IMG/VR virus record: IMGVR_UViG_3300041964_000131
Location: 1 to 38,310 of that record
DNA length: 38,310 nt
Origin: a virus
Strand: one strand, 5' to 3'
The notes below the pieces were generated by a model. It saw only the letters and a list, made by a program, of their open reading frames with translations. It was not told the DNA's origin and searched no databases. Position 1 is the first letter of the stretch. The number at the start of each line of letters is the position of its first letter. Made by a program: the position numbers and the translations under genes. Positions 13,351-38,310 of this stretch are shown here, piece after piece.

Positions 13351-14325
13351 CTAGTTGGTGATTAGTTGAACGATCGGGATATTCTTGCGCTCTAGCACTG
13401 CCTGCCAGTTCGTGCCCGTCTCCAGCTCGGTGTTTGTGGGAGAAATGCCCGCCGCAGTGCCAATCCATTTCGCACCTGTCGGATGCAAAATAAACTGACG
13501 GCGATTCACCAAGTACTCTTCACCCAAAAGGATGTCGCGATCGGTTTCCACTGGGGCTTTAGCAGGTGCTTCACCAAACGCAACAGCACTATCGCCAAAC
13601 AGGTAAGAAGTGTACCTAAACCCATTGGTGACAGCAGTGCGAGGTAGGGAGTCATCGACAATCACCCGCTTGCCTAAATAGGTGCGGATGGGTGCGCCCT
13701 GCTCAGACACTTGGTCAAACTGAATCAGGTTTTGCTTGTAGAGGTCGTGATACTTTTTGGAGTGCAGTGCGATCGCGGTAATGTCGCTTGCTGCGTCACC
13801 CAAAATGTCTACTGCATCGATTGTGGCGTTAGCGCTGATTTTGTTGGCATCAGTTGCAGTAGCCGCATCTGATACAGAAATGTTGATCGTTGCGTCCGAC
13901 ATCGATGCTGCTGCAAAATAGCCTTTCAGCGAGGAAATCAGAGTCTTTTGCATATCTCGCGCCCACCAAGCGGCAACCAGATCTCCGATTGCTTGCATCG
14001 GGTCAACGCCTGCTAGTGCAGCGGCTAGATCGTTGCTACCCCAGGCTTTACCTCGAAAATGCTTGGCTCCAACTTGAGATCCGGTCGTAATTTTGTTGAC
14101 CGTCAGAGGCACGGTATCGCTTAAAACCTCAGACACGCCAACTAAATCTTTGAAGAATGGGATTGTAGTCGTAGTGCCGTTGCCTTGAGCGGCTTCATTC
14201 AACTGCTCGTTGCTACCAACAATTCCAGATTGATAAAGCTGCGAGACTTCCTTTGTTCGGACGGTGACATACTCCATCCAACCGACCGGATCTTGCAAAA
14301 TATCGGCTACCTTCACGGCTGCCAT
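13351..14325 (-). CDS. Major capsid protein
   Basis: This 324-residue protein starts at ATG with TAGGAGA six bases upstream. Features common to HK97-fold major capsid proteins without a delta domain are visible. There is an N-terminal helix (ADILQDPVGWMEYVTVRT), an E-loop-like TTTTIPFFKDLVG, a spine helix region LVAAWWARDMQKTLISSLKG, and a C-terminal P-domain with SYLFGDSAVAFGEAP and EYLVNRRQFILHPTG. The neighbours are scaffold (upstream) and connectors (downstream), as expected. It should form the icosahedral shell. The fold assignment rests on pattern and context, not on a search. Confidence 0.85.
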   Translation of the reverse strand: MAAVKVADILQDPVGWMEYVTVRTKEVSQLYQSGIVGSNEQLNEAAQGNGTTTTIPFFKDLVGVSEVLSDTVPLTVNKITTGSQVGAKHFRGKAWGSNDLAAALAGVDPMQAIGDLVAAWWARDMQKTLISSLKGYFAAASMSDATINISVSDAATATDANKISANATIDAVDILGDAASDITAIALHSKKYHDLYKQNLIQFDQVSEQGAPIRTYLGKRVIVDDSLPRTAVTNGFRYTSYLFGDSAVAFGEAPAKAPVETDRDILLGEEYLVNRRQFILHPTGAKWIGTAAGISPTNTELETGTNWQAVLERKNIPIVQLITN

Positions 14326-14363
14326 AATTTTCTCCTAGGGGGTAAGTTTTCTTTTCCCCTCGG

Positions 14364-14404
14364 CATTGCTCTAGGGCTACCCATTGGGCTTTTCTAGAGC
14401 AATG
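14364..14404 (-). promoter_or_regulatory. 11-bp perfect inverted repeat in the capsid gene leader
   Basis: CATTGCTCTAG (14364-14374) is perfectly complementary to CTAGAGCAATG (14394-14404) with a 19-base spacer that itself contains CCCATTGGG. It lies between the HNH gene and the capsid start, about 40 bases upstream of the ATG. There is no T-run, so it is more likely an mRNA leader hairpin or an endonuclease target than a terminator. Confidence 0.6.
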
Positions 14405-14412
14405 TTCCCACG

Positions 14413-15372
14413 CTACAAAAGTGGAATTTGAGCGTAAGTCTTTTCGTTCTTTCCTAAGAGTTTCAAAATTTTCAGCCATTGCTGTCGGCTAAAAAACGAC
14501 TGCCGACTGTACCACTCAAGCGGATCAGCATTGTGCTTTGACGAGTTGCAAGATTGGCAGCATGGCAGCAAGTTTCCTATTGCCTCCGACCCACCTTGTG
14601 ACACGGCAATGAAATGATCGATCGTCTTTCCCTGACTCTTCAAGCAGTAGCAGCACAAACCAGAGAAAGCCTGCAACCGATCGTTCAACTGCTGCTTAGA
14701 GTAATTTGCCGAATGATTTTCTAGCTTTTTTGCCTTACGGCGGTTTTTTGCTTTTTTTCTTACAAACCTGCCGACATCGGTTTTGTAGTAACCGTCAAGA
14801 TACTGGTTGATATGGTCTATGTTTTCTTGGCGATATCTTCGATGGTAAGCTCTGACCCGATCGCGATTGGCGGCTAACCAGTCCTTCGCTTTTGCCTGCT
14901 TGCGATCTCTGTTTGCTGCATACCAAGCGTTTGATTTTGCGCGGTGTGCTTCTTTGTTTGCTTGGCGATGTCTGCGCCCATATTCTGAGCGTCTAGCTAT
15001 ATAGTCATCATTAGCACTGTTCTCAATGTATTTTTCTCGCTCACACTCATAGCAAGCCTTGTTGATTCGCCTTCTCAAGCTGCCGCCCGTCCCCTGGTAG
15101 TCGTGACTTCTTTTGCAAAGCACTCCTACATAGGATTTTTCGTCAAGGCAAAGATTAGAAGCGTTCTCTTGGACTGCTTTCAACTGCTGAGCTTGCTTTT
15201 GCTGAGATTCGACAAGCGCAGATTGTGAAGACTTCCAGCGACACTGACAACATCTACGCCCACCAATTGATCGCAAACTCTGCTCAGTGTCACGCCACTT
15301 GTGCCCAAGCTTGCACAATCCGCCAAGGTAAAACCTGCTGGCATCAAACCCCAGATCTTCTAAACTATTCAT
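14413..15372 (-). CDS. HNH homing-type endonuclease with duplicated zinc fingers
   Basis: I use the ATG at 15370-15372, five bases after AAGGAG (a GTG two codons upstream is less well placed), giving 319 residues. The N-terminus has two matching zinc-binding units: GLCKLGHKW...RRCCQCRW and GVLCKRSHDY...KACYECER. A long basic helical region follows (repeated xNRDRxxAxxWxxANR). The C-terminal HNH module is CCYCLKSQGKTIDHFIAVSQ and LLPCCQSCNSSKH. It sits between scaffold and capsid genes, is AT-richer than both and has its own leader. This is the pattern of a free-standing selfish endonuclease inserted in a late operon. Confidence 0.82.
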   Translation of the reverse strand: MNSLEDLGFDASRFYLGGLCKLGHKWRDTEQSLRSIGGRRCCQCRWKSSQSALVESQQKQAQQLKAVQENASNLCLDEKSYVGVLCKRSHDYQGTGGSLRRRINKACYECEREKYIENSANDDYIARRSEYGRRHRQANKEAHRAKSNAWYAANRDRKQAKAKDWLAANRDRVRAYHRRYRQENIDHINQYLDGYYKTDVGRFVRKKAKNRRKAKKLENHSANYSKQQLNDRLQAFSGLCCYCLKSQGKTIDHFIAVSQGGSEAIGNLLPCCQSCNSSKHNADPLEWYSRQSFFSRQQWLKILKLLGKNEKTYAQIPLL

Positions 15373-15455
15373 AGCCACTCCTTACTTCCGATAAGGTGTT
15401 GGTTAGCGATCGCCACTGTTATCAGCAGATAGGCGATCGCGATATCTAATTTTAA

Positions 15456-15486
15456 CCTGAAAACCTTACACAGAAAAGCTTTCAGG
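15456..15486 (-). terminator. Possible weak terminator after the scaffold gene
   Basis: On the - strand CCTGAAA pairs with TTTCAGG around a 17-base loop, 11 bases past the scaffold stop, followed by TTAAAATT. The tail is poor, so it may be partial or only a stabilising hairpin. The rest of 15379-15496 holds two HIP1 octamers and the ribosome site of the HNH gene. Confidence 0.35.
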
Positions 15487-15496
15487 CTTTAACTAG

Positions 15497-16237
15497 CTAC
15501 TTAACGCCTGCCGCCGATCTCAAGCGCTCCCATTCTGCCGGATTCTCTTTGCGTAGTCGCATTTGCTCGGTCAAGTTGAATGTCTCAGGCTTAAACGGGT
15601 TCACGATCGGCGATCGCCCGCCTCCAGGACTCGGCAACGCACCACTACCCGATGCACCATTCGGCTTGAACTGGTTTAGGTAGCGAGGCTGTTCTTTCAG
15701 TTCCTTGACAAACTCACCAAGCTCAAAAGACTTGTACTCATCACCCGCGATGATTTTGCCTTCTTCGTTGCGGCGAATCTTGTGTCCAACCAGAGTAAAT
15801 AGTTGCTCTGGGTCAAATACACCATGCTCAGGCTTAGCGAATTCTCCAATCGCTTCGGTTCTGAGTTGCGCAGCTTCAAGTGCAATCTTTTCACGAGCGC
15901 GTTCTTCTTTTTCGGCTGCGCGTTCCTGCTCGATCGCTTCCAAGCGCTGCTCTAGCTTGGACTTGTCTTTCTGATAGAGATCAGCGTATTTGCTTTTCTC
16001 TGAGGTTTCCAATTCTTCGTAGCGCTGCTTGATTTGCAGCAGTTCGTCAATGTTAATATCGGCGTGTTGCTCAAATTGCTTGAACTTTACTACCTTGCCT
16101 AACAGTTCCTTATTCTTGGCAAGTAGCCGCTCCTTTTCGTCTTTGAGTCCGGTAACTTCGGTACTCAACCCTTCGATCGTGGTTTTTTGCTCTTCAATCT
16201 TCGCTAACGCTTGCTCTAATTCCATGAGTCGTCCCAT
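15497..16237 (-). CDS. Phage capsid scaffold protein
   Basis: The 246-residue protein has a long coiled coil from residue 5 to about 130 (ELEQALAKIEEQKTTIEGL, then KLEQRLEAIEQERAAEKEER). A short folded part follows (VFDPEQLFTLVGHKI), then a Gly/Pro/Ser linker (GASGSGALPSPGGGRSP) and a C-terminal basic helix (NLTEQMRLRKENPAEWERL) that could dock to the capsid protein. This is the standard layout of scaffold proteins in phages lacking a delta domain in the capsid protein, and it lies between portal and capsid genes. An internal ATG at 16223-16225 is an alternative start. Confidence 0.8.
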   Translation of the reverse strand: MGRLMELEQALAKIEEQKTTIEGLSTEVTGLKDEKERLLAKNKELLGKVVKFKQFEQHADINIDELLQIKQRYEELETSEKSKYADLYQKDKSKLEQRLEAIEQERAAEKEERAREKIALEAAQLRTEAIGEFAKPEHGVFDPEQLFTLVGHKIRRNEEGKIIAGDEYKSFELGEFVKELKEQPRYLNQFKPNGASGSGALPSPGGGRSPIVNPFKPETFNLTEQMRLRKENPAEWERLRSAAGVK

Positions 16238-16240
16238 TGG

Positions 16241-16267
16241 GCGGGCATAGCCCTATACTTCGCCCGC
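16241..16267 (-). promoter_or_regulatory. Hairpin just upstream of the scaffold start
   Basis: GCGGGC (16241-16246) pairs with GCCCGC (16262-16267), with a nested ATAG/CTAT in the loop, ending four bases before the scaffold ATG. No separate Shine-Dalgarno is seen, so the hairpin probably affects initiation. Confidence 0.4.
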
Positions 16268-16274
16268 AGGGTTC

Positions 16275-16706
16275 CTACGAATCAACCTGGCTAAGAGCTT
16301 GGCGTAACTGCATGACAGCATTAACCGGATCTTCGTAGTAAAGCTGCTCTGAAGCTAAGAAGCGCTCTACCTCGACTTTCAAGACTTCCAATCTGGCAAG
16401 CCTTGCATCAGCATCAACACTCGATCGATCGCTGGATGCTTGCAACGTCCGCAGTTGGGCAAGTTCTTCTAGGATGCTTACAAACCAAGTCGACTGGTGC
16501 GATCGAAAGAGGTCGATTTCATCAAATGCAACTTGAAGAGCAGCGAGAGACGGGAGAGAATCATCGCTATCCATTCCAGCAAGCTCAGCTTCAAACAGCA
16601 GATCGCTTACTTTTGCTCTTAGATTCTCAAACTTGGCAAACATATCCTGCCGCTTCTCTTGGCTGAGCGATCGAAGTTTGTCTAAGTGCGGATTATCTTT
16701 GCTCAT
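16275..16706 (-). CDS. Helical phage protein with two internal repeats
   Basis: The ATG at 16704-16706 (MSKDNPHLDK) is preferred over an upstream TTG. The 143-residue product contains two related ~40-residue helical hairpins: one beginning KFENLRAKVSDLLFEAE and ending AFDEIDL, the other beginning LARLEVLKVEVERFLASE and ending ALSQVDS. The second is clearly homologous to the whole of the next small protein. It lies between portal and scaffold genes. It may be a head-associated helper; no known family is recognised. Confidence 0.6.
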   Translation of the reverse strand: MSKDNPHLDKLRSLSQEKRQDMFAKFENLRAKVSDLLFEAELAGMDSDDSLPSLAALQVAFDEIDLFRSHQSTWFVSILEELAQLRTLQASSDRSSVDADARLARLEVLKVEVERFLASEQLYYEDPVNAVMQLRQALSQVDS

Positions 16707-16721
16707 ATCCAATCGACATTC

Positions 16722-16907
16722 TTAAGAGTTGGCTTTGTCAAACGCCAATTTTAGCTGTATGACGGCAAAAAGCAACTCTTGATGGGAGTGACACTCAGAG
16801 TCAAGAAACCGCTCAACTTCTGCATTCAACGTCTCTAGCTTGGCAAGTCTTTGAGCAGTCGATCGTTCGCTATCTTGCAAATCCGATTTAGGCTGACTTT
16901 CGTTCAT
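16722..16907 (-). CDS. Small helical paralogue of the neighbouring gene
   Basis: A 61-residue protein from the ATG at 16905-16907; a TTG two codons earlier is possible. Residues from LAKLETLNAEVERFLDSE to AFDKANS align with the C-terminal repeat of the 143-residue protein, sharing the RLAxLExLxxEVERFLxSE core. The two genes are therefore a tandem duplication of one helical hairpin, with a third copy inside the longer protein. The function is unknown. Confidence 0.6.
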   Translation of the reverse strand: MNESQPKSDLQDSERSTAQRLAKLETLNAEVERFLDSECHSHQELLFAVIQLKLAFDKANS

Positions 16908-16918
16908 GTGCAATCGCT

Positions 16919-18466
16919 TTATGCTGACGCCTCAATTGTATCGGGTGGTATTGGCGTCAACTGCCGCTGACTAAGTGGAATTGCATTCACATCGATCGTA
17001 TTAGTATCACTTGGTACGGGCGCAGCCTGTCGCTTGAATTCAGATTCCAACTTGGCGATCTCTTCTTCAATATCAAACTCATCGTCAAATATTTCGCCTT
17101 TTTTCAGCAGCGTTAGCAGTGTTTCTAGGCTGATCTGACTGGCGCTGTGCAAACGGCTAAAGGCATCGATCGCTTGTGGCGTCAACTCTGCCACGTCAAA
17201 ATCACGATTCACCTGGCAAGTGCCTGCTGGTTGGTTCATATAGGCAGCGTGGAACTCTAGGCACAGATCGAACGCATCTTGCAGTCCTTGAGCGATCACC
17301 GACATAATCGAATCACCCTGGACTCGATCGAGCTTTTTCGCCTCTGCTGATTCGCCTACATTCTTCTGGCCAACCAGCGTAGACAGCCCCAGCATCGCCA
17401 TCTGCTGCTCTAGCTTGTCAATCCGGCTATTCAGTCCATCAAATGAGGTTGGAGGCGGTGCAATCCATTCTGCTCTGCCGTCTGGGTTATCAAATACCAG
17501 CGCTTCATCAGCGCCAACAACTACATCACCTTGATCGGTGTTGTAGCCGTATAGCACCAACTTAGGGTGAGCGGTGATGTGGAGGCTGTGGTTGAGGTCG
17601 GATGATAATTGAAAATGGTTGATATTGAGATAGGCGACTTCCAGCATCGGAGGACGGGTGACTGACTCTCGTTTCTTGTCTGTGTAAATGAAGGTGAAAG
17701 GGATGTACGGCAACGACAAGAAGCCATCTTCGCCCACCTGCATCCAGTTGCCGTCAATCTCTTGAAACAGTCGATAGCGACAGCGCCCCTCAAACAGGTC
17801 GTACACTTTGATCCGCTCGACTTCTGCTTCTCCAAACTCTCCAGAAGGCTCGATCGAGTTCTCGCGGATCCTCAATTGAGTAAATACGCGCCGATTGCCG
17901 ATCGTGCTGTAGCGCCAGCCAATAATTTCAGGAGCCGTGTAATGCACCCAGTAAGGGCGATAGCCTCTTTCCACCTCATCGGCACGAGTGCGAACGTCTC
18001 CTTCTTCAACCTTGGGATAATTCACAAAGATCCCGGTATAGCCAAAATCGATCGCTGCCTCAAACACCTCACGCGCAAAGCTGTTGAGGTCGTCTCCCAG
18101 TAGGTTGATGTTGTCGAGGTGAGACTCGATCGCAGGCACTACGTCCTGGAGTGCGATCGGCTTGCGCAAGACCATGCCCGACTACGCCACGCACTAAGCG
18201 GACGTACCAAGGCGCAAAACACGATCGCCCTAGTCTGCGTCCATAGGCGTCCTCGCGCTCAAAAGGTTCGTGAGGCAAAAATGCTTTGCCACCTTTGCGG
18301 ATGTCGGGAGTGCCACCCTTGACGACTTGATCACCTCCCACCAAGGGCGCATCTGCTCATAGGCATTGCAAGGCGCATCTACCCCATGTGTCGAGGGCAG
18401 GGGCGCGGTTCTAGCGTCAGGTAGCGGAGTGAGTTTACTTCGCTCGGCGATAAAGTTATAGGTCAT
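16919..18466 (-). CDS. Phage portal protein, DUF4055-type (N-terminus frameshifted)
   Basis: The 3' part (418 residues from 18175) is intact. Upstream frames give the missing N-terminus: MTYNFIAERSKL at 18466, then GGTPDIRKGGKAFLPHEPFE and REDAYGRRL, then FAPWYVRLVRGVVG, leading into VLRKPIALQDVVPAIE. This order (EDAYxxR...F.P...R.V.G.VG.V.RKPI) is that of the DUF4055 portal family. Typical continuations follow: FGYTGIFVNYP, a PYIPFTFIYT strand and the crown-side SESAEAKKLDR-like helix (GESAEAKKLDRVQGDS). The full length is about 515 residues. It forms the dodecameric DNA gate at one capsid vertex and follows TerL directly. At least two indels lie between about 18180 and 18345. Confidence 0.85.
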
Positions 18467-18500
18467 CAGCAGGGGCGATCGCTGTTGTGAGCGTTCCTAC

Positions 18501-19982
18501 TTAATAGACCCGAATGCCCGATGAACGAATGGCAAACGGCTTGTTCTCTTCTAGCCAAGCGATCGCCTGAGAGCAACCGTCTACCTGATCGTCGTTTGCC
18601 CCGTTAGGAAATGCGCTGAATTCTTCCACCAGATCATGCACCCAAGGCGCGATCGAGGGATCTGGCAGATAGACGTTACCCGCTTCAATGTAGGGCGCGA
18701 TCGCCGTTGCCCTGACGACTTTGCCGCCCTGTGGATTGATTGGAATTAGCCCTGAAATCTCACGCTTGAGCAGATCGATTACAGCGCTGCCGTTGGCTTT
18801 GTCCTCTACCAGTTTGGCCTTTGGCTTGCGGCCATTTGGCGGAGAGCGATCGAATAGCAGTAAGTGTGGCGTTGATGTCCATGCGATCGCGCACCTGATC
18901 GAGCAGATAGTATTCGCTGCCTGACTTTCCCCAGACTTGCCCGACTACAAAGTCAGAGGTTTTTGCATCCTTAAAGGTGCAGTCCCAGGATTGAATGACG
19001 CGATCGAAGCTAGCCGGAGGTACTTTGTAAAACTGCCACCAATCGCGCTTGAATAGACCACCTGTAGCAGGTGAGGGGCGCTGCTGAATTGCCCTGCGTA
19101 GCCATAAGAACCGAGTCGGGTTTTGAATTCTGTCAGCTCAGCCTGTCCAACCCGATCGCCCCAAAGTAGCTCGCCTGGGGCTGTTCTAGGGTCTGACCAA
19201 AGCGGGGTAACGCTGCGGCGATTAGGTTCAAATTCAGCAGGCAAGCATAAGTGAGTGTAGCCACCCTGCTCTAGGACGTGACCGGATAGATCCTTGTCAT
19301 GCACTCGCTGCATCACAATTACTTTGGCGGCAGTCTTGGGGTCATTGCCGCGTGTGGACATCTCCTCATCCCACCATTCGAGGGTTGATTCGCGTACTGC
19401 TTCACTCTCCGCCTCATTGACTTTGTGCGGATCGTCCACCACAATCCGATCGCCGCCCTCGCCTGTACCTGCACCGCCAACTGAGGTCGCAATTCGATGC
19501 CCAGTGCGATCGTTCTCAAATCGCAGTTTCTCATTTTGATCGCCCGTCAGTTTGAAGCAGTGACTATAGCGCTGCTGATACCATCGGGATTGAATGATGC
19601 GGCGGCACTTGAGCGAGTCACGCTTGGAAAGCGACTGAGCATAGCTTGAGAACAGCCAACGACTAGCAGGGGTTGATCTCTGCCCACTCCCAGCAAGGCC
19701 AAAACACGCACACCGTTAAAGATTTGGCATGACGGGGCGGAATGTTGATCAGCAGGTTCTTGAGGTCGCCAAGCGTAACCGCGCTCAGAGTGGTCTGAGA
19801 TCGCGTCAATATGCCAATTGTGCTGGTAGTCCCGTCCTGGTTCGACGATGTGCCATGCCGCCTTTAATGAACTGAGGCAGCGTCAATGGCTCAAACTGAG
19901 GGCGATCGCGATCGTCTGCACCAAACTCAGCCTCTAAATCTTCGATAAGCCGCTGCTTTCGGCTTACGCTTGCAGCGACCAT
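18501..19982 (-). CDS. terL: Terminase large subunit (about five frameshifts)
   Basis: Joining frames gives about 493 residues from MVAASVSRKQRLIEDLEAEF to SSGIRVY. The ATPase half shows QHNWHIDAIS, the Walker-A-like LINIPPRHAKSL, SSYAQSLSKRDS, the Walker B GGDRIVVDDPHK, and the coupling motif VIVMQRVHDKDLSG. The nuclease half has the RNase H-like acidic positions in IQSWDCTFKDAK, LVEDKANGSAVI and NDDQVDGCSQA. Breaks lie near 19855, 19790, 19665, 19080 and 18815. It cuts concatemers and drives DNA into the head through the portal. Its start overlaps the TerS end by 19 bases, and its stop lies 34 bases before the portal ATG. Confidence 0.85.
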
Positions 19983-20683: not shown

Positions 20684-21520
20684 TTACCCCAACACCTTGC
20701 TAGCTTCCACCAAAAACACTTGATCCTCTGGTCTGCCAATTTGCTCTAGCTTTTGAACTGCAACTCTCAAATAGCGAGTAACGGCAAGCAACCGCATTTC
20801 TGCCACATCATAAGCGCTCTGCAAGCCTTCAGCAGGATTGGTAGGCTGTTGCTTTGGCACAGGCACAATCGCCTTTACAGGCGCAGGAGCCTCACTCCCA
20901 ACGGTAATCTGATTAACCAGCAGTGCCGTTGTCTTCCCCGGCTCTACCTCAATCTTTACCGCCAAGCCCTGCCGCTCAGTTGCCACACCCGATCGCCCAT
21001 AGAGCGGATGATCAGAGTCGCTGACAGTGATGGTTTCTTGCTGTGCGATCGCATTGTCGATCGCCTCATAGGGTGTTTTCGCCTTGGCAGCAGCAGCAGC
21101 TTTTTGAAAGTCTGCGGTGACTGGAGTGCGATCGGGCGTAGCGCTTGCAATCACATCTACAGCAATAACCGCCTCTGCTTGCTGCTCTGGATTGAGTGAG
21201 GCTAGCTGGCGCAAATGCTTTTCTTGAGTGGGAACCCAGGTTCCCAAATCGCTAAGGCTGTCTTGCATCTCCCCAGCGGAAATCAGCATATTGATGTATC
21301 GATTGCTTTTTCCCCACCGTTCCTTGCAGTAATCCGCAAAAGTAGCGTGTGTTGCCCGATAGAGGCGATTGTTGCGGATTTCTTGCAGGGATCTCCAGGC
21401 TTTGTTCCACCCTCTCTCTACAGACTCCATGCCGGACTCGATCGCCGCCTCTAGATGCGACAGCCGAAGCCCTTCTTGAAATGAAAGAGGTTGATCTTGT
21501 GTCAATGATTCAATGTGCAT
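20684..21520 (-). CDS. Phage/plasmid-type DNA-binding protein (LYR...YCxxRWG...VPT domain)
   Basis: The 278-residue protein starts at ATG overlapping the end of the sigma-like gene by 19 bases. Residues about 35-125 follow a layout often met in plasmid and prophage ParB-related or replication-control proteins: SLQEIRNNRLYR, FADYCKERWGKSNRYINMLI, then VPTQEKHLRQLASLNPEQQ. The middle is Ala/Lys-rich with a beta part (GLAVKIEVEPGKTTALLVNQ), and the end is a helix. A site-specific DNA-binding role just ahead of the terminase genes would suit packaging-site marking or regulation. The exact family name is not certain. Confidence 0.62.
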   Translation of the reverse strand: MHIESLTQDQPLSFQEGLRLSHLEAAIESGMESVERGWNKAWRSLQEIRNNRLYRATHATFADYCKERWGKSNRYINMLISAGEMQDSLSDLGTWVPTQEKHLRQLASLNPEQQAEAVIAVDVIASATPDRTPVTADFQKAAAAAKAKTPYEAIDNAIAQQETITVSDSDHPLYGRSGVATERQGLAVKIEVEPGKTTALLVNQITVGSEAPAPVKAIVPVPKQQPTNPAEGLQSAYDVAEMRLLAVTRYLRVAVQKLEQIGRPEDQVFLVEASKVLG

Positions 21521-21840
21521 CTGAGGGAGTCCAAAGCGAGAGTGACGATCGATTCCAAATCTTCGAGGCTTAGATCATGCCGTTGGGCAATTTGGGCGGT
21601 TTCGAGTTTCAGGAAGTAGCGGGCAGTGAGTACAGCGTGTTGAATTTCGGGCAGCAGTGCCATTGCCTCATGTAGCGATCGATAGGTTTCGAGATCTCCG
21701 CTTGAAATAACTGCCGTACTCTTGCAGATTTCCTCATCCAGTTCCCCTATCGACTTTTTAGCGGTTGCCCGTTCTAACCACTCCCACTCGTCTTTGCCAA
21801 TTCCCATCGCAGCAGGCAACCTTAACAATGGGGAAATCAA
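21502..21840 (-). CDS. Sigma factor C-terminal part (region 3/4-like), separate frame
   Basis: This 112-residue frame starts at TTG overlapping the stop of the upstream sigma region 2 gene (TTGA). LPAAMGIGKDEWEWLERATA resembles the region 3 segment of cyanobacterial SigF-like factors. The C-terminus EAMALLPEIQHAVLTARYFL...AQIAQRHDLSLEDLESIVTL is a region 4 helix-turn-helix in the usual 'L...r.v...ryf...t..eIA...gls' pattern. It is either a separately translated half or, more likely here, the same gene after one indel. It would read the -35 element. Confidence 0.6.
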   Translation of the reverse strand: MISPLLRLPAAMGIGKDEWEWLERATAKKSIGELDEEICKSTAVISSGDLETYRSLHEAMALLPEIQHAVLTARYFLKLETAQIAQRHDLSLEDLESIVTLALDSLRCTLNH

Positions 21841-22214
21841 ATCCCTTGCAAGACAAGCTGCCGATGCTCTTTTTTTACTTTGGCAGCGGTTTCACGAGCG
21901 CGTCGCGGAACCTTTATTAGCTCACCATGATCGCGGAGGAAATGCATGATTTCTCCGCGAATAGAGGGCACAGCGATCGAGCTGAACTTAAGCCCTAGAG
22001 TCGGGTCGTAGCACTTAATCGCTTTGGTTAAGCCAATCAATGCAAGCTGCTCTAAATCCTGCAATGGTTCGCCGCATAGTGCCTGCATCCGCCTTGCAAT
22101 TTTTAGAGCCAACGGGCGGTGATGCTTGAGAAGTTTTGGAATAGGAAGACTCGATTGAACCGAGGAAGCAGATCGCATCGAAGCGGCGGCAATTGCGACT
22201 GAGGGCACGATCAA
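21837..22214 (-). CDS. Phage-encoded sigma-70 family factor, SigF/SigB-like (region 2-3)
   Basis: Within 125 residues lie HRPLALKIARRMQALCG, then DLEQLALIGLTKAIKCYDPT, then SSIAVPSIRGEIMHFLRDHG and IKVPRRARE. These are regions 2.1-2.4 and early 3 of group 3 sigma factors. The start is uncertain: TTG 22214, GTG 22208 or ATG 22178 (MRSASS), none with a good Shine-Dalgarno. It is the first gene of the 14-kb - strand late operon and faces the + strand late operon. It probably directs RNA polymerase to phage late promoters. The region 4 half is in the next frame. Confidence 0.78.
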   Translation of the reverse strand: MIVPSVAIAAASMRSASSVQSSLPIPKLLKHHRPLALKIARRMQALCGEPLQDLEQLALIGLTKAIKCYDPTLGLKFSSIAVPSIRGEIMHFLRDHGELIKVPRRARETAAKVKKEHRQLVLQGI

Positions 22215-22290
22215 AAGTACTAATGAGTTTCGCTAAATGTAGCGTTTTGTACTCAAGATGTCCATTCGTTTAGCGTTTTTAGGGTAAAGA
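22215..22290. promoter_or_regulatory. Divergent late promoter region with TAGCG repeats
   Basis: This 76-bp gap separates the two late operons. It contains CGCTA-AATG-TAGCG (22231-22244, perfect inverted repeat) and two direct copies of TAGCGTTTT (22240-22248 and 22271-22279, exactly 31 bp apart, about three helical turns). AGTAC/GTACT flank the first part. These are good operator candidates for controlling both directions. No standard -35/-10 pair was identified. Confidence 0.6.
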
Positions 22291-23481
22291 GTGAGCGGCG
22301 AAGCGGCAGCACAATTAATCGAGAGAACCGATCGCACTCTTCAGGACATGGAAGATGCGGAAGTCGATCGACTTTATGCAGCCTTAGACGCTTCTTATCG
22401 ACGACTCGAAGCTGATTTATTGCGTCGATATCCCAACTACACCGCAGAATCAAAACCGGATTTGCTAGCGACTCAGCGCGGCGTTCTTCTGGTCAACGAC
22501 CTGCAAGCGCAACTTGCATTAATTGACCCCGATCGTGAGCAAGAGTTGCGCGATCGCTATGAGAAATTGCTGTCAACTGCCTCGAAAGAGGAACGACGCT
22601 GGGTGATGAGTTGGTAGCACTTGAGCAGGGCGATAGCTTTGTCAAGGCAACTGCAACTGTACCGATCGAAGCTGCTGCTTTTGCGGCGAGGGATGCAGTC
22701 GATCGCCTCAAGAAACACGATCAGACATTCCGTGAAGAAGCGTCCACGATCATCACTCAAGGATTGATTCAAGGGCAAGGAGCGCAAAAGGTTGCTGGAT
22801 TTCTGCGGCAGCGGCTAGGTGTGACCAAGGGTAAGGCAGAGACGATCGCCCGCACTGAAATTATTTCGGCTCAAGACTCAGCCACTCGATCGAGATACAA
22901 GGAATATGGGATTCAATACAGTCCAAGAATCGCCACGCAAGACCGTAGGGTCTGCAATTTCTGCGCCGATCGCGCTGGCAATGTCTATCCCGTTGACGCT
23001 GCACCTGCTGTAATTCATCCGCAAGATCGCTGCTATTCGCTCCATATTTCCCTGAACAAGAAGCGTCTAACCCTAAGCGAACGAGTGGATCAAGCAACAC
23101 GCTCAAAAAGTTAAAGCGGCAACCACCGATCAATCGAATAGCAATGTTGCGCCATTTGAACGCGCTGCAAATATCTCTCCACCTAAGCCAGTTTGGACAC
23201 CTGCCGATGGCTACCTCGATCGCTCCGTGCAGGTTAAGGGCGAACAGTGGGCAGTCGGCAAGCTAGCAGCGCAAATACTCACAGATCGATCGCGTCGGCA
23301 GACTCCACAAGAGCAAGTCAACAACGATCTGCTGATTGCGCTCACGGTGGGGGCAGCGGTCGCAGGTACGACAGTCGGCAGCTACTATCTAGCTCGATCG
23401 CGCTATCGCAAAGGGTTTAAGCGATCGGCAACAATGGCGCAAGAGACTGTCGCAAAAGTTTCGCAAAGGGGTAGAAGCTGA
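22291..23481 (+). CDS. MuF/SPP1 gp7-like minor head protein domain (frameshifted)
   Basis: A GTG start opens a helical N-terminus (EAAAQLIERTDRTLQDMED). After an indel near 22600 the frame at 22611 carries the gp7/MuF core. It includes GLIQGQGAQKVAGFLRQRLG, AETIARTEIISAQDSATRSR, then RIATQDRRVCNFCADRAGNV and the closing VIHPQDRCYSLHI (Cys/His pattern CxxC...H...C). A second indel near 23100 leads to QKVKAATTDQSNSN and a hydrophobic helix (LIALTVGAAVAGTTVGSYYL) ending at 23481. Minor head proteins sit inside the capsid near the portal and can be injected. This is probably the N-terminal part of one giant protein reaching 27239. Confidence 0.75.
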
Positions 23482-24130
23482 CCCCAGCGAAAACGATGAG
23501 CAAGTAACGTTTGTCGTGGGTGGCTTTTCAGGAGAGCAGGGCGGGCAGGGCATTTATCTAGCGAACTACTTTCAAAAAGTCGTACTGCCCAAGCATCGAG
23601 TTGTGGGGGTACGCACACCCGAATTCGATGTAGAAGATCCGGGCGGAGCGCCCACACCTCGCAAGGTAAGCCAAATCTTCTCGAAGTTCCTTTCGACTGC
23701 GATCGTCGAAGGGCGCAACATGGCATCAGTGAGAGTGGCAGCGCAAGCCTATGCTTTTCATCAGAAATACCCTGACAAACCGATCAATATCATCGGCTAC
23801 AGTGCAGGCGGTGCAACGGCATTCGAGGCAGCAGAGATCCTTAAGGAGATGGGCATCACTGCCAAGGTAGTCGCGATCGGGTCGCCTTATTTTGGCTTCA
23901 ACGAAATGTCGCCAGAGCAGGGCATCACGATCGCTGGCACAGGTGATCCGTGGGCACAGCTTAGCGCTCTCAATCGCGTTCCACTTGCCAATGTCAAAAA
24001 CCACTCATTAGAGCAGTATTTGCCGGATGAGGAATTCGTCGCCACGATCAAGCAATTTCTGAAAGCAGACATTCCGCCAAAGAACGATCGAGCGAAGCGG
24101 CTGAACCTGTCAAGACGAGCGAACCATTGA
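23482..24130 (+). CDS. Alpha/beta hydrolase (lipase/esterase-like) domain, likely fused to the MuF protein
   Basis: The frame entering at KGVEADPSENDEQV has no ribosome site and reads on from the MuF tail across a homopolymer-rich GCAAAAGTTTCGCAAAGGGG, so it is probably the same gene. It has an oxyanion-type loop (FVVGGFSGEQGG), the nucleophile elbow INIIGYSAGG (Ser codon 23801-23803), an acid in TIAGTGDPWAQ (Asp codon 23944-23946) and NVKNHSLEQYL (His codon 24002-24004). A complete Ser-Asp-His triad is thus present in correct order. It would hydrolyse an ester, lipid or acyl bond; the substrate is unknown. The frame ends at 24130 by another indel. Confidence 0.72.
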
Positions 24131-24859
24131 CGACGATGTACTAGCACGGCAGATTGACGAACTGATCCCGCAACTGCTGTTGCTCAGTGCTGACGAGATT
24201 CGATTGCTTCCCCCTGCGATCGCGCAAAAGCTTCTCCTGCCCGTAACGCTGCCGGATTATTGCCCGGACGCGCTGATCCGAAAGCTTTGCCGGGGCTAGC
24301 AGAACCGAAAGCACTGCCAGGATATGAGCCATTGCTGGCACTACCTGAAGCGCAACCCGTTAAAGGACTGCTGCGGGGTGAGTTGCCACGATTGGCGCTG
24401 CCAGCAGGTGTAGAGCTTGCACCGTTGACACCCGTTGAACGGCAAGCACTGGAGACGAAGATCGCCCGCAATTTGTACAAGCAAGCCCGATCGATCGATC
24501 GGGGAGCCTCACGACTGGCAGAGTTTCGACTGCGGCAGGCGATCGATGAAATCAAACGGCAAGATATGCCTGCACAGGCAAAAGGTGCAGCCTATCGCAA
24601 GGCAGTTTTCGAGCAGTTGCAAGGCACGATCGAGACAGCAGAAGCTACGCCACCCGGAGCAAAAGACGCTGAGCAGTTCGATCGTTTTCGATTTAAGGGC
24701 GTCGATTGGTACGTTCCCAAGCTAGGAGAAAACAGCCCCACCCTTGACCTACTGCGCAAGGTGGCAGAACTTGACTTGCCTGAGAATGCGCTTGGTCAGG
24801 GGATATTTATATCACTCGGCAGCGCAACGCTTCAGAGCAGTATTGGCGCAAAAAGCTGA
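24131..24859 (+). CDS. Middle part of the giant head protein: helical plus Leu/Pro repeat linker
   Basis: Just after the hydrolase, another frame continues as TIDDDVLARQIDELIPQLL and LPPAIAQKLLLP. It then shifts into the frame at 24260 with a proline-rich linker built from PKALPG and related units (DPKALPGLAEPKALPGYEP). A helical part follows (VERQALETKIARNLYKQARS) and then a compact domain with FRFKGVDWYVPKLGENSP and LRKVAELDLPENALGQG. Indels near 24250 and 24800 break it. No start with a ribosome site is found, so I treat it as an interior segment of the 22291-27239 gene. The domain after the linker is not recognised. Confidence 0.5.
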
Positions 24860-24886
24860 AGCTGAACACGCCCTAAAGTAAACGGC

Positions 24887-27239
24887 ATGGTCGCCTTCGA
24901 CGAAGGGGCGATCGCGCTCTACGGAGGACGTGCCAAGATTGACGATCTGCTGCTGCAAGCTGGCTATCTGAGGGCATATCAGCAGTTTGGACAACTGACG
25001 CCACCTGAGCGCTCTGAATACGCCCGTGCCATGTCAGAGACGCGCATGGCCTATCAGAACAGACCCGATCGCGACTTTGCTGAATCGGTGAAAGAGTTCT
25101 TCTTGAATCCTGACTATCTGAAGAAATTCGCACCCGCCCGCTACGAAGCGATCGCCCGCATCTTTGACTATCGCCATCCTCGCAAAGGCGTCCTTCAACC
25201 TCAATCTGCTGAGCCACAGCAACCGGATACACGCAGCCCGCAGATTGTTGAAGACTTGCGCACTGCTAACGCCACACTTGCCGATCGCATTCGCACCCAG
25301 CGAGAGCAGGCTAACGAACTCGCGACAGCGCAACGCAGCACCAAGAAAATCCAGCAGGCACTCGATCGAGTGGATCTGCCACGCACTGCGGTACAGCAGG
25401 AGCAAGCGTCTCAGGAAATTCGTATCCAAGAGGAGGCGATTAACCGAGTCGAAGCGCAGATCGAAGCGATCGAGCAGCGAGCAGCACAGCTACTTAATCC
25501 ACTCAACCCGCCCTATTTCTCGACCGTGCCGCAGCAGATTCGAGCAGCTAAGGCGCAACTGAAGCAAGCATCAAAGCAACTACAGGCGATCGAAAACATC
25601 GAGCAGACCGCAATGAAGCTGCGAACCAATAGCGCAGAATTGCAGCGGACGTTGAATGACCTCAGCACTCGTCGCGAATCCTTGCAGGCAGAGGGAGAAC
25701 GGCGAGATGTGGAGCGATCGATCACAAGCCTGAAGCAGGATTTAGAGTCCGCAGAAAAAGAGTTACTGGACTTGCCGCGATCAAGTGAAAAGTCACAGGC
25801 ATTGCGAGATTTGCAGCGATTGCGGGCAGCAGTGAATTCGCAGTCTACAGGCGTGAGCGTGGCAGACTTGCACCGCCAAGACTTAGAGCCGCGCATTCGG
25901 CAGGTATCGCAGGCGGCAGAGTCGCTTGAGCTTCTGACAGCGCGACTCGATTATAGCCGCGACAAGCTAGATGATCTGCTACAACGCCTGAATGGACTAC
26001 CTACCAAAACTCAAGATTTAACCGCAGAACAGCGCGATCGCTACAGTGCAATTAAGCGCACCCGCAACGCTCAAGGCAAGCTTCCTCAGCGGGTAGAGCA
26101 GTATCGACAGTTACGGGCTGAATTGAGTTCACAGCTTGCCACCCGCGCCAACACCACGCAGCAGCTATCCGACAATTACAGTACTCAGCGGCAGTCAGCG
26201 ATCAACAACCTGCAAGCGATCGTTAGCCGCGATGTCGAAACCGTTCGCACCAACTTACAGATCCTTGCTTCTCTTCGTCCCGGATCAGTCGCGTGGTTGC
26301 TAGACAGTCGCAACTGGGAAGAAGGAGCGATGCCTTCAGACCTGGCGATCGTGCTTCAGCGCCAACCCGGAAAGACACCAAACGAGCGCTTACAGTCTGC
26401 CGCCAACGAAGTAGCAAAGCTAGTCGGACAGGTGAACGGGCGCATCCAATCGATTCAAAAGCAGCTTGACTATCCGGATCAGCTTGCACAGGCTACAACC
26501 GCTCAAGCCGCTGCCCAGATCGCTCAGTGGCAGCAGTTGCGCGATGAGTTGGCGGATGAGGGCAGGTTAAGCGATCGCCAAATTCAGCAGCTTTTGAAGA
26601 CGCCAGAGCGGCATTCGAGCGATCGATGTGGCGCGATCGGGCAATCAGTTGATCGAAGACTTGGCAGAGTTCAACCAAGACTTTGCCAACCTGCTTCTAA
26701 CTGATGAGAATGTTGATCCACGCCAAATCATTGATCAGTCTGAACTGTACCGACGCGCTCGTGATGGCTTTGCTGAGGAAACTGCACAGACCAAAGCAGC
26801 GATCGCTCGTGAGATTGAAGATGCGCTTGCAATTGCCACGGCACTACAGCAGCGCAGTGAACGCGATCAAGGGGCAGCGTTAATCTATGAGGTCGATGGT
26901 CGCGCGATCAGTGTGGCAGACTTGCGATCGCAGCTAGAGCAATACAATCAGCAGTTGCGAGAATTCTTGCAGATCCCTCAGATTGACGTAGCGGCAAGAG
27001 TGACGGCAGAAGAAGACGATCGCTTGCGTCGTCGCCAAAGTGAGGTAGAGAAATCTCAAGCGCAAATCGCACGATTGGCAGCACTTCAGGGTGAGCTATC
27101 AGAAGTTAACTTGGAAATTCAAAAGCGAATTGAAGCCAGAGAACGCGGACAAAAGCGAGGAATTGCAGTCGATCGACTGGAAGCAAGACGCAGACGAATT
27201 CTGAAAGACATCGAGAACGCAGGCAACCCGAATGGATGA
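24887..27239 (+). CDS. C-terminal part of the giant head protein: zincin-like remnant and long coiled coil
   Basis: The segment starts NGMVAFDEGAIALYGGR, then LLLQAGYLRAY and about 35 residues later RDFAESVKEFFLNPD. That spacing resembles zincins (HExxH ... FAE) with the HExxH positions replaced. From about residue 100 a heptad-rich coiled coil of some 450 residues follows (for example EEAINRVEAQIEAIEQRAAQ). One indel near 26630 moves it to the frame ending GNPNG at 27239. The stop overlaps the ATG of the next gene. Long coiled coils occur in capsid-internal and injected proteins. Together with the upstream segments the corrected product is about 1,650 residues. Confidence 0.6.
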
Positions 27240-33500: not shown

Positions 33501-35727
33501 GCAGAGGAAGCCGCCAAGCGTCGACTAGACATCCAAAGCGAAATCAGTGACCTCAGCTTGCAGCAGATTGAAGCTGAACTCGATGCCCGTCTAGAAGCAG
33601 AACGCAAAGCGGCAGACGAAGCAAAAGAACTGCGGGATTCGGTAAACGTCGATGCGACTCGCGAAACCTACACAGGTACGAGTGCGGCAGGCAGGCGGCG
33701 AAATTAATGAGGCAGAAGCCGCAGCAGAAATTGCAGAAATTACCGCTAACGCCACTGCTCGGCAGATTGAACTGGTAGAGCAGCGTTTGGGCGTGGTGCG
33801 GCGTGGCAGTGACGAAGAAAAGGACTTAACCAGAGAACTTGCTGACTTACAGCAGCAGTCCGCAGAGCAGGAGATCGCCCGCCAAGAGCAGGTGAAGCAG
33901 GCGCGATTGGAAGCGCTTGAACGTGCCAACCAACAGGCAGAAGCTGCGATCGATCAGGGAGAAACCGCTGAAATTACTGCTATTCGTGAGTTGCAAGCCC
34001 AGAGGGTGATCAGTGCTGAGGAGGCAGAGACAAGAATTGCTGCCATGAGGCAGCGCACGGTAGCCCTTCAAATTGCTCTTACCGAAAGCGAAATCGAACA
34101 AGTTCGACAGCTTCGAGCGGAAGGCGTTCTTAGTGAAGAAGAAGCGATCGAGCGTCTGTCAGACCTAAGTGGCGAACTTGGCGAACTAAATCAACAGCGA
34201 GTTGAAAATGAAATCGACGCGCAAGAGCGATTAAAGCAGGCTCGATTGGAGGCAATGGAAAGCGCCAATCGCCAAGCAGAAGCGGCGATCGATCAGTCAC
34301 AAACCACAGGGGTTACTGCAATCAAGAGCTTGCAGGCGCAGCGAATAATTTCAGAGGAAGAAGCCACCGAAGAAATCGCAGCGCTACAGCAAGAAGCACT
34401 CGATCAGCAGATTGCCCAAACTCAAGAGCAAATTGCAGAAATTCAGCAGCTTCGATCTGAAGGCATTCTCAGCGAAGAAGAAGCTACTGACAGATTAATC
34501 GACCTAAATGGAGAATTAGGCGATCTTAACGAGGAACGGATCGATGCAGAAATTGACTCTCAAGAGAGGCTAAGAGAGTCGCGAATAAAATCCCTTAATG
34601 AGGAGCTAGACTTCAAACGCAAATCAGCGGAAGCAGATCAGGGACTCAACCAAATCGCGATCGACTCTATTAAAAATGAAAACAATCTTCTATCTGCTCA
34701 AAGCAGTCTGCTTGAGGCCCAGTCGGGGCTAGCAGAACAGCGACTTCAATACGCCTAGAAGACGCTGAAACGGCAGGCAATAGCGCCCAAGCCGATCAGA
34801 TCAGACAGCAAATTCTCGCTCAACAAACCGTTGCCCAAGAGAAGCAGTTTGCGATCGCTCGACAGCAGCTTGAACTCAAGCGCGAACAAGTCGCACTGGA
34901 ATCACAGCAGCGGCAGATTCAAGCTGATATTGCAATTACAGAGGCAGAAGTTGCGCTCTCTACGGCAGCAATCAATGGTGAAAATCAACAGGTGATCGCA
35001 GGGTTAGAACGAATTTTAGATCTGAGGCGGCAGCAGCGAAAGGCAGTCAATGACCAGAACAGAGCGCAAGAGCGATCGCTTGAACTTGAGCAGCAAACGC
35101 TCACCACTCAACAGCAACAAACGCGAGAGCAGCAGCACGGCAGCGGGCGCAGGGAAACAATAGAAACTCAGGCAGCGGCAGTGGTTCGGGTGGTCAATCA
35201 GGATCGGGATCAGGATCTTCTGGAGGCTCAAGGAGTTCTGGATCAAGCTTCGGATCGAGATCTGGACTTGCACCCAGCCGATCGCTTGTAGTCGAGAGTC
35301 GCTGGTCGCTGCAATGGGTGCGGGAAGTATGCCAGCCAACTTTAGCTATGGCGGAATCGGTGGCAGTCAGATGCGGCAAGCGGAATGGCGCACACCCGAA
35401 TGGAGCGATGGGCGATCGACACCAGTGCAAAGTCCTGCTGCTTCGACAATGGCAGCATCTAGGCAGCTAAGTCCTTTGCAGTTGCAAGGGCTATCACAGA
35501 CGGGCTTACAGCGCAATGCGCAAGCAAATCGCGCAGTTCAGCCACAGACTACAGGAACACTAACAGCCAGCCAATTCAATAGCGGAATTAATCAGCTATC
35601 GCAAAGGATTGTTCAACTTGCGAATGCGCCAAGAGCGGTAACACTTCAAACACCCGAACCCGTTCGTGACTATCAGCGAATCTCCAGTGATTTAATGTCT
35701 TCTCGCGCTAGAGCAGCAGGAATATGA
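30555..35727 (+). CDS. Tape measure protein (several frameshifts)
   Basis: The first segment (30555-31334) has SLGTLNLVLSADSSPLRKEL and hydrophobic helices. A T8 run at about 31304 shifts the frame into FDAARNFETLNNRLELTSTS ... DLAFLRQTAKDLGLDFKAVS ... LAERVPGAFAAAAQALGVTT, the conserved tape-measure domain. Then come a hydrophobic stretch, further indels near 32230, 33010, 33200, 33390, 33700 and 34755, a very long Gln/Glu/Ala coiled coil with 113-residue repeats, a Gly/Ser linker (SGSGSGSGGQSGSGSGS, near 35176) and a C-terminal part ending at 35727. The corrected length is about 1,720 residues, suggesting a tail near 250 nm at ~1.5 Å per residue. It sets tail length and leads DNA entry. Confidence 0.82.
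33871..34640 (+). repeat. 339-bp (113-residue) tandem repeats in the tape measure
   Basis: Corresponding points begin at 33871, 34210 and 34549, exactly 339 bp apart, giving two full units and a third partial one. Each unit has QxRLExxxxANxQAEAAIDQ, then LQAQRxISxEEAxxxIAA and LRxEGxLSEEEAxxRLxDLx. A more diverged copy lies upstream around 33420-33600. Repeats of this kind change tail length in whole-unit steps. Confidence 0.85.
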
Positions 35728-36178: not shown

Positions 36179-36412
36179 ATGAGCGAAGATCTGCAATTAC
36201 TAAAGCAATTAGGCTTGTCGCTGGTACTGCGCAATGGGCAATGGTATTGCGGTCAATTTGGCGGCGACTTCGAGGGCGATGAAGGCTATTTAGACGAACA
36301 TGGAAGGATTGATGGGCTTCTATACAATGCCGGGGTAGCTGATACCATCCCTAAAGCGATCGCGCTTGCTGTTGTCGCTCGTCAAAGTGTGCGGCAGCGA
36401 TCGAAGAATTGA
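36179..36412 (+). CDS. Small hypothetical tail-module protein
   Basis: An ATG at 36179 or 36173 (both in GCATGAGCATGAGC, the second overlapping the previous stop) opens a 77- or 79-residue protein. It starts SEDLQLLKQLGLSLVLRNGQ and has WYCGQFGGDFEGDEGYLDEH and a helical C-terminus (AIALAVVARQSVRQRS). The Asp/Glu-rich loop may bind a cation. No family is recognised. Confidence 0.5.
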   Translation: MSEDLQLLKQLGLSLVLRNGQWYCGQFGGDFEGDEGYLDEHGRIDGLLYNAGVADTIPKAIALAVVARQSVRQRSKN

Positions 36413-36435
36413 AATTAAATCAGTAGGAATTCTCA

Positions 36436-36458
36436 CGGCAGCTTATCTAGCGCTGCCG
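36436..36458 (+). promoter_or_regulatory. Hairpin before the tail hub gene
   Basis: CGGCAGC (36436-36442) pairs with GCTGCCG (36452-36458) around a 9-base loop, ending one base before the ATG at 36460. There is no T-run. It may lower expression of the hub gene relative to its upstream neighbours. Confidence 0.45.
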
Positions 36459-36459
36459 C

Positions 36460-38293
36460 ATGACCGTCGATCGCAGTTCCCGCCCTTTCAAAATCGTCGT
36501 TGCTGCGCCTGGTGAATCGATCGCGCAAGGATGGATGTAACCGCGATCGTTCAATCATTCAGCGGTAGCTGCAACCTACTCGATCAAAGTGGATTCAATC
36601 TGGACAGGCGATATAGTCCTTAAGCCTACTCTCCAGGAATCACGATCGGAGTGCAACCCCAGGCGCGATCGAGTTCGTTGGGCGCGTGGCAACCGTGTAG
36701 TGATTTGGCTGGCAGACAGTCAGGTGCGCTAGTCAGTACAAGACGGTTCATATCTGAAAGAAACCGTTGCCGCCCACGCCAAGAATTCGACAACTATCAC
36801 CCCTAGACATCGGTGATAAGCTCTCTCTCCTTGACTTTAGGCAACCACCAGGAGATGAGAGCGGCGTTGCACCCGGTACAACCAGCACTCGATCGGATGT
36901 CGTAGGCTCCCTGTACAGGCAGCAGGTGCAGGCAATCTCACCGGTTCAATCCCTGGTGATGTCAACTGCCCATTGCAAAAGTTAGGCAGGAGGTTTTATC
37001 CAGCAGGCAGGGCAAATTGCCTTTGCCGCTGGGAGATACCTTTGGTGTGATGCCACTGGAGATGTTCGCGCTTCAGCAATTCCTGACGATGAGGACGCAA
37101 CCGCACACCGCACGATCGCAATCGGGCAAGACGAACTCGGATATGAAGCGATCAGCAGTGAAGAAACACCTGCCGAAATTGTGCGCTGTACGGGTACTGA
37201 ACACATCACGAAGTACACGGACGACTACAACAAAAGCACTGTTGAAACGTGGGGGCCAGCGGCGATCGTCAGCCCCAACGCAGGCGGCATCACAATCTTT
37301 TCCAGAGAAACGATCGAGGAGTCTTGGGGGCCAAACTCACGAACCGTCAGAACCTACCGAGTAGAACCGCGCGGGCTTGTGTTTCCTGACGTACAGAGCA
37401 ATCGGATCGCCTTAGTACCCAGCCTCGATCAGGAGGAAACGTTTGTTTATGAACCAGGGATCGAGGGGAAACTGCTACGAATTGAGAGGCATGTTCGCAA
37501 GCCCTACGGGGTGGCACTGCGAGAGTATTACGCCACACAATCTGCGCAAGAGCAGGCAAACAATCGATCGAACATGATCGCGGCTGAACGCACAATCACG
37601 ACCTACGACTACAGCCTAGAGCAGACGATCGGAGTCTACAGCGATACGTCAGAACCACAGGGCGCGATCTTGCCTGTGAGATTGGACGTTTGGTAACCCT
37701 GCTTTTTAGTGCCTTCTGCCGCAGAGAATCAAACCTGGAAAGAGGTCTATAAGGGTGAGTGGAAATACACGAAATCGACCTATGAAGCTGTTGCGCGGGC
37801 ATTTCCAGAGGTGATCGAGGCGATGCTGCCGGATACGCCAACTCGGCAAAGCTGGGGATCTGCTCACCGATAAACAGACCGTAACCAGCAACTCAGGGCA
37901 AGCGCAACCGCCTGCACCCGATCGACGGAAACCGAAACCACAACCGAAGAAAACCGATCGAAGGTGTGGCTGAATTCCGCTCTTACGCAGGTGCAGAGTA
38001 TCAGGAGAGGGAGCGCACCTATGACGTTCCTACGCCGACCAAGAAGAGCTAAACGCCAGCAGCAAGACGACTAGGCAAATTACTGATCGGGCGGCATCTA
38101 GGGCAAAATATCGAGTTCGCGCTGAGTGACTATTGGCTGAACGATCGACCGCCATTGCAGACCATATCGGTGATTGAGCCTGACGGTCGTGAGTATAAAT
38201 TCTTGCTGAATAACATTTGCGATCGCGTTCGATAATCGCAACTGTTTTTTAGGTGGCGACGGCATTTGGCTAGGGGAGATTGTTGATGACTAA
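36460..38293 (+). CDS. Tail hub / tip-associated protein (many frameshifts)
   Basis: An ATG at 36460 opens MTVDRSSRPFKIVVAAPGES. Indels then scatter the reading, but protein-like segments follow in order: VAATYSIKVDSIWTGDIVL, then FIQQAGQIAFAAGRYLWC and ATAHRTIAIGQDELGYEAIS. An intact stretch to 37696 follows (TEHITKYTDDYNKSTVETWG, FVYEPGIEGKLLRIERHV), then TWKEVYKGEWKYTKSTYEAV and a Pro/Lys linker. The end reads LIGRHLGQNIEFALSDYWL and AFDNRNCFLGGDGIWLGEIV, stopping at 38293. About 600 residues with this 'd.tT....ee.w' hub-like middle and position after the distal tail protein fit a gp27/Tal-type hub. The family is inferred. Confidence 0.58.
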
Positions 38294-38310
38294 ACGCCTG
38301 AAGCTACCTT
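38286..38310 (+). CDS. Partial CDS at right edge
   Basis: An ATG at 38286, preceded by AGGGGAGA at good distance, opens MTKRLKLP and runs off the window. It overlaps the corrected hub stop by 8 bases, matching the ATGA-style overlaps elsewhere. Nothing can be said of function. Confidence 0.45.

Follow-up and report, generated by a model that had tools for sequence, protein, structure and literature searches.

A SigF-like sigma factor gene heading a packaging operon in a probable cyanobacterial phage, most likely split by sequence errors

The window, a viral DNA stretch of 38,310 nucleotides analysed as a whole, is best read as carrying one SigF-like sigma factor gene of a cyanobacterial phage. 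In this reading, to which we give a probability of roughly 85%, the gene heads an operon on the minus strand, and its apparent split comes from two insertions that are most likely errors. The whole gene (21502..22214) was delimited by alignment with two related phage contigs and by domain matches, and it runs through three reading frames in the window. ORF1 (22214-21837, 125 amino acids) is the N-terminal part with sigma region 2 (Pfam Sigma70_r2, E=1e-11), and its true start may be an ATG some codons further in (MRSASS...). ORF2 (21840-21502, 112 amino acids) supplies the C-terminal end, where Pfam recognises sigma region 4 (Sigma70_r4, E=6.7e-7; Sigma70_r4_2, E=4.6e-7). At their junction the TTG at 21840-21838 lies over the TGA at 21839-21837, which gives the overlap TTGA. 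An earlier note had described the two overlapping frames and had called the factor SigF/SigB-like. Both descriptions agree with the Pfam and NCBIfam matches, as a single NCBIfam model, SigBFG TIGR02980, matches ORF1 on its positions 7-100 and ORF2 on 165-225. As the two ORFs cover its N-terminal and C-terminal portions, the arrangement is far from chance.

Two close relatives were found in the searched collections, both from IMG/VR. L002 (contig 3300018877_000004, handle G001) is 86% identical to the window over ORF1, and L003 (contig 3300041964_000082, handle G002), itself on an indel-rich contig, is 83% identical. The sigma gene of L002 is a single uninterrupted frame of 235 codons that extends from region 2 to region 4. 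TIGR02980 matches its residues 16 to 222, and its predicted model has helices for regions 2, 3 and 4. These regions thus lie on one polypeptide in L002 and not in the window as assembled. A corrected sequence with a single gene of about 235 residues had been named beforehand as the finding that would refute the split. Here it is the closest relative that supplies such a frame, and not a corrected sequence of the window contig. Of the one- or two-gene versions to be sought in relatives, L002 has the one-gene version. The L003 gene is also broken, by another one-base difference further downstream than those of the window, so that no kept two-gene form appeared.

Two insertions of one base each, near 21814 and at 21842-21846 and about 30 nt apart, are found in the window and in neither relative; the exact inserted bases are ambiguous inside short runs. 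The frame changes in the gene are two and not one, because the roughly 30 nt between them (21814..21846, minus strand) encode FDFPIVKVA, as in the relatives, in the third frame only. The interval 21830-21850, which had been proposed for resequencing, holds one of the changes, but the other, near 21814, falls outside. The window differs from L002 at six positions between the insertions, and every one of them is a third codon position in the third frame (probability 0.0014 under equal positions). Therefore, the gene either is still read through in a single frame or has ceased to be only very recently. Judged from the sequence, neither two separate genes nor one -1 shift would predict a third-frame segment of this kind.

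The insertions are not peculiar to the sigma gene. Across 17.1 kb of the window alignable with two or three relatives, 47 private indels break the frame and 2 keep it, a rate of 2.7 per kb, compared with 4 frame-breaking indels (0.23 per kb) for G001 in the same alignment. At the local rate, calculated with the sigma gene left out, 1.8 indels are expected in a gene of 672 nt, and at least two have a 54% chance. The substitutions private to the window number 121, 55 and 432 at codon positions 1, 2 and 3, respectively. This third-position bias indicates strong purifying selection. Indels that ignore the frame beside substitutions that respect it make the pattern that sequencing or assembly errors give. 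In a virome benchmark, the indels per 100 kb were 15 for Illumina-only, 37-130 for Nanopore and 25-519 for PacBio data, depending on the assembler (PMC10926689). On this scale the 274 of the window fall within the published long-read range, and the 23 of G001 are close to the short-read figure. The indel pattern argues that the sigma split is very probably an artefact of an indel-rich assembly. A frameshift error had already been favoured as the simplest reading in the earlier note, and it is supported by the intact L002 gene, the private insertions and the contig-wide indels. Split genes elsewhere in this contig should likewise be compared with relatives before they are believed. Private one-base indels are most tightly clustered at 36411-38310 (7.9 per kb), which is perhaps a low-coverage contig end.

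The insertions could instead be real and mark a sigma gene recently inactivated in a decaying phage or prophage genome. Defective prophages are common, and many further genes of the contig are broken too. Decay of this kind is nevertheless unlikely, as the private substitutions remain strongly biased to third positions. They have room for no more than about 165 unconstrained substitutions, or about 3.5 for each of the 47 indels, which is fewer than neutral decay should give. Moreover, G001, a relative whose assembly is clean, is intact.

A further contig bears on the question of whether region 4 is needed at all. The 80 relatives of the terminase and the 37 contigs with the family of the downstream gene yielded one new syntenic sigma gene, on contig 3300034630_000009 (L103, handle G003). 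The gene (L103:5907-6422) is an intact SigF-like frame of 171 amino acids that stops short of region 4, and 8 nt past it the next listed ORF starts. It likewise heads the packaging operon, and the gene order there is sigma, a relative of the downstream gene (27-28% identity to the 278- and 284-residue proteins described below) and terminase. Beyond regions 2 and 3, the predicted model has only two short helices of low confidence, and a region-4 domain was not found elsewhere on the 72-kb contig, which has long intact frames (1884 codons). The sigma of L189 was discarded as a syntenic relative; it looks RpoD/SigA-like and is separated from the family gene by about 7 kb. The L103 protein, a single example of a sigma lacking region 4, may simply be truncated or may function in the absence of this region, and it deserves separate attention. 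The wider proposal would be that the packaging-operon sigma of these cyanobacterial phages works without a covalent region 4, which is dispensable or a separate protein, and that the split in the window is a tolerated step. We consider this proposal very improbable.

The least credible reading is a true two-part sigma, in which regions 2 and 4 would be two proteins coupled in translation or would be joined by programmed -1 frameshifting. Both parts retain their domain matches, and the TTGA overlap looks like a coupled stop-start. Two-subunit precedents also exist in SigO-RsoA (PMC8103513) and in T4 gp55 with gp33 (PMC7892883). Against it, the closest relative has one frame and L003 is broken elsewhere, so there is no conserved two-gene layout; the stretch between the insertions has evolved in the frame of neither ORF, and the indel rate of the contig suffices to explain the split. 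The genuine two-subunit sigma that the earlier note had entertained is disfavoured by the segment in the third frame and by the indels throughout the contig. As for frameshifting, the sole candidate slippery site is the seven-A run at 21870..21876 (minus strand; coding strand GTA AAA AAA GAG), where a -1 slip at A AAA AAA leads into the region-4 frame. It was rejected because the intact L002 gene has the same run with no shift needed there, and the RNA that follows the run is not folded more stably than shuffled sequences (z -0.52). A phage sigma of two subunits would be of note, and as the split is very probably an artefact, this false lead falls away.

The comparison with the two precedents can be made more exactly. 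In SigO-RsoA of Bacillus subtilis, regions 4 and 2 are in separate frames, as they apparently are in the window, and the split is a real protein pair (PMC8103513). The split of the window, in contrast, is private to one contig whose relative has one gene. T4 gp55 is a phage late-gene factor with a region-2 domain, and it forms with gp33 a two-subunit sigma in a looser sense. This comparison is relevant mainly to L103, whose sigma lacks region 4. By contrast with the window, where region 4 is a true Sigma70_r4 domain, gp33 is structurally unrelated to region 4 (PMC7892883).

With the split read as error, the gene stands as a new SigF-like sigma that leads the packaging and head genes in a group of cyanobacterial phages about which little is known. 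From its matches, the intact protein is predicted to be a SigF-like group 3 sigma of about 225-235 amino acids. TIGR02980 and SigF NF005644 are the best or near-best family matches for both the window gene and L002. The score of L002 against TIGR02980, 107.9 bits, is below the curated cut-off of 234.35. Because the matches stay below the curated cut-offs, the gene belongs to a divergent phage branch outside the named subfamilies and is called SigF-like only. L002 has regions 2, 3 and 4 in one protein, like the group-3 sigmas of the SigB/SigF/SigG type with about 225 amino acids. Searches for the fold in the PDB matched bacterial sigma factors, as expected; the loose placement of the domains kept the overall TM-scores low. 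PHROG 351 covers residues 16-222 of L002. The same sigma type is represented among phages by this PHROG, by SigF-like sigmas of Bacillus phages and by the 'type III' sigma of cyanophage PSS2. The SigF/SigB type had been called unusual for phages, which does not hold. At E values up to 1e-5, L002 matches 95 phage records, cyanophages among them, with identities mostly of 23-42%, and about 90 phage sigmas were classed in a survey as sporulation-like, i.e. SigF/SigG (PMC9429907). One scan of genome contigs returned only distant bacterial sigmas (26-40% identity) and no cyanobacterial prophage with the sigma gene.

The position of the gene at the head of a packaging and capsid operon was also confirmed. 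The next gene (20684..21520, minus strand) encodes a protein of 278 amino acids from an unnamed family and stands beside sigma in three related phages. The rest of the operon spans 13351..19442 on the same strand and has PHROGs matches for a piece of the terminase large subunit (18945-19442), a broken portal (16919-18344), a scaffold (15497-16237), an HNH endonuclease (14413-15378) and the major head protein (13351-14325). In L002, one strand carries in order sigma, a gene of 284 amino acids, two small proteins, a 144-residue protein, a 169-residue protein and the terminase large subunit. The 169-residue protein, at the position of the small terminase, has no family match. A minor-head gene (22291..27239, plus strand) diverges from the operon; it is in several pieces in the window and is one frame of 1651 codons in G001. 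Elsewhere in the window, a sequence of about 310 bp is repeated in tandem (two copies with 68% identity) at 33883-34529, inside an ORF of 368 amino acids (33652-34758), for which no PHROGs match was found.

The host is probably a cyanobacterium. The HIP1 motif GCGATCGC, typical of many cyanobacteria, occurs 49 times in the window against 1.6 expected. Relatives of the 278-residue family are on many cyanobacterial plasmids, including those of Nostoc. The assignment of the host follows from this excess of GCGATCGC together with the plasmid relatives of the neighbouring gene.

A late-gene role of the sigma is plausible from its family and from its first place in the terminase, portal and major-head operon. 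The intact factor would bind the core of the host RNA polymerase. Its region 2 would read the -10 element and open the DNA, and its region 4 would bind the beta flap and the -35 element. The polymerase would thereby be sent to phage promoters, perhaps including those in the divergent intergenic region (22215..22290), a candidate promoter region of 76 bp that separates the sigma operon from the minor-head gene and could serve both structural operons. Compared with L002, region 4 of the window (21502-21750) has only about 45% nucleotide identity and region 2 about 80%. Region 4 is far more divergent, and thus the -35 specificity may differ among these phages. The uneven divergence counts against the reading of the split as error. 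A search of viral contigs with ORF2 only gave no match, by a method that requires short exact peptides while region 4 is divergent.

Two exact direct repeats of AAAACGCTANA (22238 and 22269, 31 bp apart) are present at 22231-22279, and the divergent intergenic region also has the near-palindrome CGCTACATTTAGCG. These elements are partly retained in G002. From their form, the repeats and the near-palindrome are a possible operator. As a shared late-promoter motif AAAACGCTANA was rejected, with six matches at one mismatch or fewer against 2.4 expected and no convincing use at other operons. No shared promoter motif able to test late transcription was found.

Other features of the relatives were observed along the way. 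G001 has a second sigma-like gene (L014:6277-7152, 291 amino acids), with RpoD/SigA-type and MzaA as its closest models, which adjoins methyltransferase-like genes. The two ends of G002 (L018:1-12433 and L022:2282-14714) are 12.4-kb copies, 91% identical, that differ by 122 single-base gaps and 947 mismatches. They may be redundant ends with sequencing errors or, given the 947 mismatches beside the gaps, two strains joined. Finally, across the divergent promoter region, the window and G001 are identical at 178 of 180 positions (22171-22350), after which the identity falls suddenly to about 80%, likely at a recombination boundary.
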